A stretch of 64,000 bases of DNA. It comes from Geovibrio ferrireducens. Lineage in GTDB: Bacteria; Chrysiogenota; Deferribacteres; Deferribacterales; Geovibrionaceae. Of this stretch, positions 1,005 to 62,866 are shown one piece after another. The notes beneath the pieces are model-generated. The model searched no databases. It saw nothing but the letters and a program-made list of their open reading frames with translations, and had not been told where the DNA came from. The stretch is from contig NZ_JAJAPB010000004.1 of the NCBI RefSeq assembly GCF_026226615.1, forward strand, positions 124,001 through 188,000, given 5' to 3'. Numbering within the stretch: the first letter of the stretch is position 1; each line of letters begins with the position of its first letter. A program made the translations under genes and the position numbers.

Positions 1005-1025
1005 ATGCCACCTCTACTTTACTGC

Positions 1026-1280
1026 TCGTGTTTACCGTCCATGGAAACACTCGCCACACGCTCGCGCCGTGATGAACACGGCTGCGCTTCGCACGGCGAA
1101 CTTCCTTCCATGGAAGTTTGTGAGCCTATATATAATCGTATTCCGTTCTCTGTTACGTTTGCTGCTCCCGCATACGCTGCGGTACGCACTCCGCGTGTGC
1201 CTCCATGCACATCAGGCAAGTTCCAGCTTCGCACGGCGGACTTCCTTCCATGGAAGTTTGTGAGCTTATATAAATCGTAT
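1026..1280 (-). repeat. Hairpin-array repeat, copies A and A' (tandem)
   Basis: Two tandem units of the dispersed hairpin repeat. Read on the minus strand, unit A has a hairpin with arms 1099-1105/1112-1118 and loop ATGGAA. It is followed by the core CGCCGTGCGAAGCG (1085-1098), a variable hairpin (1066-1071/1077-1082, arms GCCGTG/CACGGC) and a terminal hairpin (1028-1036/1043-1050) with loop ATGGAC. Unit A' repeats the ATGGAA hairpin (1240-1257) and part of the core (1227-1239), but its remainder is degenerate. The rest of the 500-base gap up to 1507 is AT-rich and shows no convincing gene. Confidence 0.85.
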
Positions 1281-20133: not shown

Positions 20134-20211
20134 ATTACCTTATGCACAGTGTGATGTTAAGTATGAGATTCAGAAAGACACAGCGACGTTCACAGCTCTC
20201 TGACATAGCAA

Positions 20212-20394
20212 CTCCACGGATGGAGCTGCGCCGTGCGGAGCGAAGACCTGTCTTGCAGGGCGTGAGCGTATATACAAAATTTCCATGGAAGGCAAATTTT
20301 GGATTATCAAGACAAGACACTGCGCCGTGCGGAGCGAAGACCTGTCTTACAGGGCGTGAGCGTATATACAAAATTTCCATGGAAGGCAAATTTT
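20212..20394 (+). repeat. Hairpin-array repeat, copies B1 and B2 (tandem)
   Basis: Two units in direct tandem. A first hairpin CTCC-ACGGAT-GGAG (20212-20225) precedes core GCGCCGTGCGGAGCGAAG (20228-20245). Next come a variable hairpin at 20247-20259 and an AT-rich hairpin with loop ATGGAA (20276-20300). After a 20-base linker the core recurs at 20322-20339, with hairpins at 20341-20353 and 20370-20394. The variable stems differ by one base (GCAGG versus ACAGG), and both stay paired. The linker word AAGACAAGA also occurs between the two units at 39945-40132. Confidence 0.85.
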
Positions 20395-20404
20395 AAGCGG
20401 TAAG

Positions 20405-39717: not shown

Positions 39718-39891
39718 GGTTCCTCCGAAAATAAGCAATAACTCATTTTTAGCCCATAAACTACCTTAATACAACTGAAAATGGTGATAAACAATAGTGG
39801 GACAAGAATGATGTATTAAATTCATGAGAATGGGAACAGGATTATAACTCTCGTACTGCAAATGAAGTGATGCAAAAGCAAAGTCACTCTG

Positions 39892-40217
39892 AGCGGAAGC
39901 GAAGAGTCTCAAGATAAAGCAATGTTCAGACCGGAATTTTCCCACGGCTCCACGGAAGGAGCCGCGCCGTGCGAAGCGAAGGTTTGCTTTGCAAGCCGCG
40001 AGCGTGTATCTAAAATTCCCATGGATGGAGGATTTTAGATTGTTAAGACAAGATGCCGCGCCGTGCGAAGCGAAGGCTTGCTTTGCAAGCCGCGAGCGTG
40101 TGCCTCAAACTGACAGGATGTACGGTTTGAGGCTGGCAAACAAGAAGATTCTTCGGCTACGCCTCAGAATGACGCAATGAACACCGTCACTCTGAGCGGA
40201 AGCGAAGAGTCTCAAGA
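39892..40217 (+). repeat. Hairpin-array repeat, copies C1 and C2, with flanking half-elements
   Basis: Two tandem units read on the plus strand. C1 has a hairpin with 7-bp arms (39945-39951/39958-39964) and loop ACGGAA, the core at 39965-39980, a variable hairpin at 39981-39997 with one G-T pair, then a hairpin at 40010-40038 with loop ATGGAT. C2 has its core at 40059-40074, a variable hairpin at 40075-40091 and a 10-bp hairpin at 40103-40132 with loop ACAGGATGTA. Half-copies of the 13497 repeat family lie on both sides (39892-39915 and 40185-40215). The remaining 39718-39890 shows no gene. Confidence 0.85.
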
Positions 40218-40246
40218 TAAACGCAACGTTCAGCATGACTGGAAAC

Positions 40247-41681: not shown

Positions 41682-41882
41682 CACTAACAAGAACTACCAC
41701 ATACGCTGTTTGTAAGTCAACGTTTTTTTGGTCAGGACACGTTTACAGGGGAGTTTAGCCCAAACTTAAGTCTCCCACAATTCAAATTAATGTGAAGTTG
41801 CAGTGTCTATTGTTGAACACAGTGTTAAACCGCTTTGATACACTTCGGCAGGGATATTTGATTCTTTAGAGAAAATATACAG

Positions 41883-42049
41883 AAGATCCTTCACTGCGCT
41901 CAGGATGAAACTGTCACGGCTCCACGGATGGAGCCGCGCCGTGCGAAGCGAAGGCTTGCTTTGCAAGCCGCGAGAGTGTGCCTTAAACTGACAGGATGTG
42001 CAGTTTGTGGCTGGCAAACAGGGGATCCTTCACTGCGTTCAGGATGACT
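41883..42049 (+). repeat. Hairpin-array repeat, copy D, with flanking half-elements
   Basis: Single unit on the plus strand: hairpin 41917-41936 with loop ACGGAT, core 41937-41952, variable hairpin 41953-41969, and terminal hairpin 41981-42010 with loop ACAGGATGTG. The terminal stem has a C-A-G arm where copy C2 has C-G-G, so the pairing partner changes from U-G to U-A. Pieces of the 13497 family flank it at 41883-41908 and 42023-42049. Confidence 0.85.
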
Positions 42050-42082: not shown

Positions 42083-42211
42083 GTCACTCTGAGCGACAGC
42101 GAAGAGTCCTGAACAAATCCTCCCCGACCCTCCTTTTATTAAAGGAGGGGGTTTTAGCTTTATTACCAAAAACTTCCCCCTTTAACAAAGGGGGACTGAG
42201 GGGGATTTATT
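42083..42211. repeat. Composite of two short palindromic repeats
   Basis: A half-copy of the 13497 family (42083-42113) is joined to a C/G-rich element with two hairpins. The first is built on CCCTCC-TTTT and AAAGGAGGG, the second on CCCCCTTTAACAAAGGGGG. The same C/G-rich element recurs at 55001-55080. No gene is present in the 41682-42219 gap. Confidence 0.75.
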
Positions 42212-55112: not shown

Positions 55113-55170
55113 GCAGATCGGCGTGTTCCCATGAAAAAAGAGAGCCTAAGCAAAAAAACTCTTGAGCCGA

Positions 55171-55276
55171 CTTACCAAGTGAAAAACCACATCCTGTGTT
55201 TTTCACTTACACGCTCACGCCGAAACAAGTTCGGCTACGCTGCGCACGGCGTGTTCCCTTCCATGGGAGCGTTTAC
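55171..55276 (-). repeat. Hairpin-array repeat, copy E
   Basis: Read on the minus strand: hairpin 55270-55253 with loop ATGGAA, core 55251-55237, variable hairpin 55235-55219 (arms GCCGAA/TTCGGC), and a perfect 11-bp terminal stem (55208-55198/55187-55177) with loop ACAGGATGTG. The gap from 55277 to 55414 shows only the rpmB leader. Confidence 0.85.
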
Positions 55277-62682: not shown

Positions 62683-62751
62683 ATGGAACATATAAAAGGC
62701 GCAGGAGTATGCGGCTCTTGTTTTACCGGCTCGGATTTCACATCCGTGTAA
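62683..62751 (+). pseudogene. Truncated duplicate of the argJ start (22 codons)
   Basis: The first ten codons of argJ with their ribosome-binding site, then 12 unrelated codons and a stop. It arises from the 47-bp direct repeat (62667-62713) and would be translated as a short peptide, since AAGGAG is intact. Confidence 0.7.
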
Positions 62752-62822
62752 TTCCTCGCCACATGCTCGCGGGCGGGTAAACCGCCCTTCGCTTCGCACG
62801 GCGTGTTTCCATCCATGGGAAC
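62733..62822 (-). repeat. Hairpin-array repeat, copy F
   Basis: Read on the minus strand: hairpin 62822-62805 with loop ATGGAT, core 62803-62788, GC-rich variable hairpin 62787-62771 (arms GGGCGG/CCGCCC), and a weaker terminal hairpin 62755-62733 with loop ACACGGATGTG. Confidence 0.85.
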
Positions 62823-62866
62823 TTAAAAGGTGCGCATTACAAATTACAGATTAAGGAGAATTTATC

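Follow-up and report, generated by a model that had tools for sequence, protein, structure and literature searches.

GGA-Hairpin Units in the Window

The window, the whole 64-kb stretch of DNA analyzed here, is part of contig 4 of a genome of 2.97 Mb. It contains six loci of a repeat with a total of eight units, two of the loci being tandem, and one additional degenerate copy (Table 1). On the strand that carries GGA, a unit consists of hairpin HP1, a linker (CGCCGTGCGNAGCGAAG), hairpin HP2, a second linker (CGCGAGCGTGT) and hairpin HP3, followed by a short AU-rich tail. HP1 is often missing from the second unit of tandem arrays, so that HP3 of the preceding unit takes its place. The segment at 40103-40132, singled out in the preliminary description, is real but is only HP3 of the second unit in the tandem pair at 39944-40142. 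An intrinsic terminator was considered and rejected, because the AU-rich tail that follows HP3 contains no T run.

Table 1. Repeat units in the 64-kb window, with the positions of their hairpins and linkers, loop sequences (in brackets) and covariance model scores
Unit	Position	Strand	Parts and loops	Score with model R1
Full unit	1014..1119	-	HP1 1099-1119 (ATGGAA); HP3 1023-1055 (ATGGAC)	78.2 bits
Degenerate unit, upstream of the 1014-1119 copy	1157..1259	-		26.0 bits, E 0.0008
Full unit	20208..20314	+	HP1 (ACGGAT); HP3 20272-20304 (ATGGAA)	76.6 bits
Second tandem unit, without its own HP1	20323..20398	+	linker 20323-20339; HP2 20340-20354; linker 20355-20365; HP3 20366-20398	
Full unit, first of the tandem pair 39944-40142	39944..40050	+	HP1 39944-39964 (ACGGAA); linker 39965-39981; HP2 39982-39996; linker 39997-40007; HP3 40008-40040 (ATGGAT); tail	101.4 bits
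Second tandem unit, without its own HP1	40055..40142	+	linker 40059-40075; HP2 40076-40090; linker 40091-40101; HP3 40102-40133 (loop ACAGGATGTA, 40113-40122)	
Full unit	41916..42021	+	HP1 (ACGGAT); HP3 (loop ACAGGATGTG, 41991-42000)	110.5 bits
Full unit	55167..55272	-	HP1 55252-55272 (ATGGAA); HP3 55176-55208 (loop ACAGGATGTG, 55188-55197)	99.3 bits
Full unit, copy F	62718..62824	-	HP1 (ATGGAT); HP3 62728-62760 (loop ACACGGATGT)	78.2 bits

The positions that the preliminary description gave for three HP3 loops (one ACAGGATGTA loop and two ACAGGATGTG loops) are exact, its sequence for the HP3 loop of copy F was confirmed, and the remaining outer loops are ANGGAN, as it stated (ACGGAA, ACGGAT, ATGGAT, ATGGAA and ATGGAC). 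It had likened the three named loops to a CsrA motif, ACA-N-GGA, with GGA in a hairpin loop. The GGA hairpin loops are there, but the three loops read ACA-GGA without the N; they fit the CsrB repeat CAGGA(U/A/C)G and not the SELEX consensus RUACARGGAUGU. The sequence ACAGGATGTR has three exact matches in the window, when compared with 0.1 expected under a first-order Markov model, and all three sit in the last hairpin of a unit.

Other interspersed repeats abut the GGA-hairpin units and form mosaics with them, at 39883-39918, 40186-40221 and 42083-42118, at 41879-41908 and 42018-42047, and at loci L005, L009 and L177. The repeat types found in these mosaics are GTCACTCTGAGCGGAAGCGAAGAGTCTC, ATCCTTCACTGCGCTCAGGATGA and GCAATGACG...GAAGCAATCTC.

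The Stems Vary in Sequence and Stay Paired

The three stems of the unit vary in sequence while their pairing is kept. With RNAalifold, the linkers that flank HP2 pair with each other, and a GNA/GA internal loop stays open between them. Below its apical stem of 2-3 bp, HP3 in most cases carries a single bulge on the 3′ side, and the bulged base is usually a purine. The covariation model came from the genome of the window and the rows were taken from sister species, so that the score is a test on other genomes. Among 109 distinct rows from two sister species, with the alignment fitted to the model, 97.1% of cells were paired, both partners had changed in 24 of the 33 stem pairs, and the covariation score was 0.622, vs. 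0.167 for shuffled rows; slid partners reached no more than 0.096. G-U pairs were rare in the variable stems, and Watson-Crick pairing was near-perfect.

How the stems change was analyzed at 31 orthologous site pairs (G000, G001 and G002), whose flanking proteins are mostly 75-100% identical. Whole hairpins were often swapped for other paired ones, the outer ones again with a GGA loop (e.g., L037/L170 and L154/L162), and a local tandem array in one species often matched a single unit in the other. Hairpin turnover looks like DNA-level exchange or template switching between copies, with loops and pairing under selection, and not like stepwise compensation; the rarity of G-U pairs, with the exchange of whole hairpins, suggests that a process at the DNA level is also at work.

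GGA Is Kept in the Outer Loops

Loop statistics were obtained from 219 distinct units gathered via their linkers alone, so that the loops played no part in finding them. GGA lay within the apical loop in 180 of the 206 HP1 that fold and in 202 of 219 HP3, and in none of 218 HP2, which served as the internal control. HP1 was CANGGANG in 148 of the 219 units, and HP3 was CAGGANG in 159 and CANGGANG in 39 (together 198 of 219); the N of ANGGAN is absent from many HP3 loops. In 152 HP1 loops the C, the A, the first G, the second A and the closing G were invariant, and each N could be any of the four bases. The middle G was kept in 148 of the 152, at a position where the search pattern also allowed A.

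CsrA-type patterns include the ANGGAN hexaloop, to which RsmE binds, and CAGGA(U/A/C)G, the repeat of CsrB; the SELEX consensus for CsrA is RUACARGGAUGU (PMC7652899). The repeat carries the CsrA target pattern, ANGGAN or CAGGANG inside a hairpin loop, and at the sequence level its loops are the CsrA pattern. Loop-loop kissing was rejected, because ANGGAN is not self-complementary and its N is variable. Mimicry of a Shine-Dalgarno sequence by the loops was also rejected, since a G rarely follows GGA (7 of 152).

csrA, fliW and Flagellin Leaders

The gene csrA was present in 23 of 23 element-bearing genomes, and elements were found in 0 of 14 genomes without csrA (Fisher p = 0.0004, and 0.0015 within the order, with genomes counted as independent and kinship ignored). 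The preliminary description had proposed a check for csrA and fliW, and the window's genome has both: its single csrA adjoins fliW and an upstream reading frame resembling a flagellar hook-associated protein. The CsrA encoded there aligns to RsmE (2jpp) and to CsrA of entry 5dmb, the FliW-CsrA complex.

About 33-45 nt ahead of the start codon, the flagellin leaders of the window's genome and of sister genomes have a short hairpin whose loop is C(ANGGAN)G, and their Shine-Dalgarno sequence also contains GGA, providing an internal positive control for the repeat hairpins. Several flagellin paralogues have both the leader hairpin and the GGA Shine-Dalgarno sequence (L247, L248, L249, L253, L254, L259 and L260). 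The flagellin leaders of this lineage are likely to be CsrA-regulated. The C. jejuni flaA leader binds CsrA and has two ANGGA stem-loops, the second over the ribosome-binding site (PMC4894983). The GGA-hairpin reading and the RNA strand chosen for it in the preliminary description are supported by the sequences: GGA is kept only in the outer hairpins, the N is free, and the same hairpin is found in the flagellin leaders.

Distribution of the Repeat Among Genomes

We searched 60 genomes, with 65 candidates scored in each, and read the stretches around the matches; copy numbers are lower bounds. At least 65 copies, often tandem, were found in each of three genomes (three species) of the window's genus (Deferribacterota). 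Diverged matches from another family served to build a second model, with which at least 65 copies were found in G023, 9 to 35 in its congeners, and one or more in all genomes of the window's family. In diverged relatives, from the window's family and another family, the linkers differ and the two GGA hairpins are kept in most copies read. In G023, from the other family, most HP1 read CAGGA(C/T/A)G and most HP3 read CANGGATG, and N can be any of the four bases; the fold of that family was again strongly supported, 92.7% paired and with a covariation score of 0.341 vs. 0.115 for shuffled rows.

At 65 or more copies per genome, these dispersed intergenic palindromes have the high copy number of REP-like elements. 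A selfishly spreading DNA repeat of the REP/BIME kind, in which the GGA loops serve mobilization or replication at the DNA level and CsrA is uninvolved, would account for that number, for the tandem arrays, the mosaics with other repeats and the copies abutting stop codons, and also for the near-perfect Watson-Crick stems and the exchange of whole hairpins. However, the Y1 transposase (PF01797) count was 0 in G000, G001, G002, G003 and G023, and a DNA palindrome leaves unexplained the CsrA-pattern loops with a free N in two families. We regard such an origin as unlikely. A csrA-less relative without these repeats has 17 identical Y1 transposase copies (G025:C2). A literature search found nothing relevant on CsrA in connection with REP elements or with the genera Mucispirillum and Deferribacter.

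Placement Relative to Genes

Placement was scored for 122 arrays from three species, with genes called by a simple codon model. In the window the majority of copies are not sense to any neighboring gene, and the earlier statement that copies are mostly antisense is partly right there. Genus-wide it is reversed: of the arrays at co-directional sites, 59 were sense and 12 antisense. Up to 100 nt from a start codon, the sense count was 34 and the antisense count 0; up to 10 nt from a stop codon, the counts were 33 and 12. Leader copies peak 18-28 nt upstream of the start codon, with the Shine-Dalgarno sequence inside the tail, and precede genes whose predicted proteins we read as, among others, an xerC-like recombinase, recA, pilT, dnaG, lexA, cmk, carA, guaA and proB. 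In G023, a sense bias at co-directional sites was sought and was absent (6 sense vs. 8 antisense), so that the sense rule is shown for the window's genus only.

Convergent gaps exceeded divergent gaps in the window's genus (37 vs. 9), and in G023 the copies lie mostly in convergent gaps (17 vs. 2 divergent), both in line with a REP/BIME-like repeat; what a DNA palindrome leaves unexplained is that near start codons 34 arrays are sense and none antisense, at a fixed spacing.

Sense-strand placement between cistrons and in 3′-UTRs, together with the long central stem and its internal loop of G and A, would also suit an element of mRNA processing or stability, either an RNase III or RNase E site or an intergenic protector of 3′-ends, whose loops are bound by a factor other than CsrA or by nothing. 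Such an element does not require GGA in both outer loops with HP2 free to vary, and it leaves unexplained the leader copies 18-28 nt ahead of start codons; we consider it improbable.

In two species of the other family, a unit lies 11 nt before a gene whose product starts MSKEILINSG(M/I)REVRAAVLT (G043:C133:1362-1464, L138; G042:C12:61734-61836, L135), presumably ribonuclease G.

Tandem Arrays and Possible Sponge RNAs

The longest array observed, eight tandem units in ~1 kb between two genes, is that at L164:2914-3910 (G002:C1, about 571913-572909). Several others have 4-5 units, and the majority have one to three units and lie sense in UTRs. The preliminary description had proposed that a unit acts as a small CsrB/RsmZ-like sponge with its own promoter. 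Arrays of up to eight units, with many GGA hairpins per RNA, would favor stand-alone CsrB-like sponge RNAs, as would a sub-threshold RsmV match for one array (21.9 bits, E 0.005). Promoter consensus scans of the window copies and upstream of the eight-unit array in the sister genome G002 were not above chance, however, and sites resembling promoters or terminators, both in the window and at the L164 array, did not clearly exceed the shuffled expectation. Rfam scans gave weak, non-recurring matches, of which that RsmV match was the best (gathering score 100), and it was absent from the other arrays. With most copies of the genus placed sense in mRNA UTRs, the idea of a sponge with its own promoter was not supported, and stand-alone sponges are very improbable as a general account of the repeat; the L164 array is the best candidate for one.

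A Putative CsrA-Binding UTR Module

The most probable reading, to which we give a probability of roughly 0.6, is that the repeat is a dispersed CsrA-binding UTR module acting as RNA, and that the segment at 40103-40132 is one of its hairpins. Its basis is the structure, the covariation, the conservation of the loops, the sense placement at the level of the genus, the presence of csrA and fliW, and the flagellin-leader hairpin. Counting against it are the lack of a sense bias in G023, where convergent gaps hold most copies, the many HP3 loops without the N, the signs of a DNA-level process, the neglect of kinship in the csrA association, and the window copies that are mostly not sense to a neighbor. 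We infer CsrA binding, transcription, the direction of the effect, and cis repression as opposed to titration. Two GGA hairpins, HP1 with ANGGAN and HP3 with CAGGANG or CANGGANG, spaced by a central stem and invariant linkers, would fit one CsrA dimer. Copies would be transcribed in the mRNA sense strand, after stop codons, between genes or right before the Shine-Dalgarno sequence. CsrA bound to a leader copy would block translation in the manner of flagellin mRNA; in 3′-UTRs and arrays, competition of the hairpins for CsrA would make the copies a sponge spread across many transcripts, beside the protein antagonist FliW.

These sequences suggest that repeats across the Deferribacterales may wire many genes, or CsrA itself, into one control circuit. 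With somewhat less than even odds, a movable CsrA-response module has, through amplification, hairpin exchange and tandem expansion, brought many transcripts of several genera in one order under CsrA control, and its copies, as a sponge spread over mRNAs, jointly buffer CsrA alongside FliW. If true, a post-transcriptional regulator would owe binding sites all over a bacterial genome to an interspersed repeat. Sponges of CsrA are established in Gammaproteobacteria only, FliW is the known antagonist elsewhere, and joint action of FliW and sRNAs on CsrA in any species was still to be determined according to a 2020 review (PMC7652899). A FliW/CsrA lineage in which a repeat supplies each genome with >100 hairpins of the CsrA type makes this question directly testable.

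The repeat is set apart from CsrB, TwoAYGGAY and REP by having no convincing Rfam match and no Y1 transposase in copy-rich genomes, and its CsrA binding is putative. Like CsrB/CsrC and RsmX/Y/Z of Gammaproteobacteria, its RNA would present several GGA hairpins (two for a single unit and more for an array), and its HP3 loop equals the CsrB repeat CAGGA(U/A/C)G (PMC7652899). Unlike them, it is scattered over the genome in at least 65 copies, most of which lie in mRNA UTRs; each unit joins two GGA hairpins to a conserved central scaffold, and the phylum is a FliW-bearing one. The hag/flaA leaders of FliW bacteria share with it the ANGGA(N) hairpin upstream of a GGA Shine-Dalgarno sequence (PMC4894983; flagellin leaders above), whereas the repeat stands before or behind many unrelated genes and has a second hairpin and fixed linkers. 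REP/BIME and similar palindromic repeats are likewise dispersed, palindromic, tandem, mosaic and often beside stop codons, but lack its conserved GGA loops and, in the window's genus, its strong sense bias and fixed start-codon spacing.

By analogy, the nearest idea would be TwoAYGGAY (RF01731), a predicted CsrA-binding RNA beyond Gammaproteobacteria. It was predicted in Clostridia, with tandem G-A reported in one stem (PMC4333381). Both have two AYGGAY-type hairpin loops, and its tandem G-A may be compared with the GNA/GA internal loop of the repeat. In contrast, the repeat is dispersed at high copy in a different phylum, and the TwoAYGGAY covariance model gave no match at E up to 5.

In the sister genus (G003), a second, shorter GGA-hairpin repeat (AAGCTTTCATGGATGAAAGCT...) lies in opposite orientation beside the longer one (L125:1343-1444, L125:1678-1779 and L131:1364-1467).
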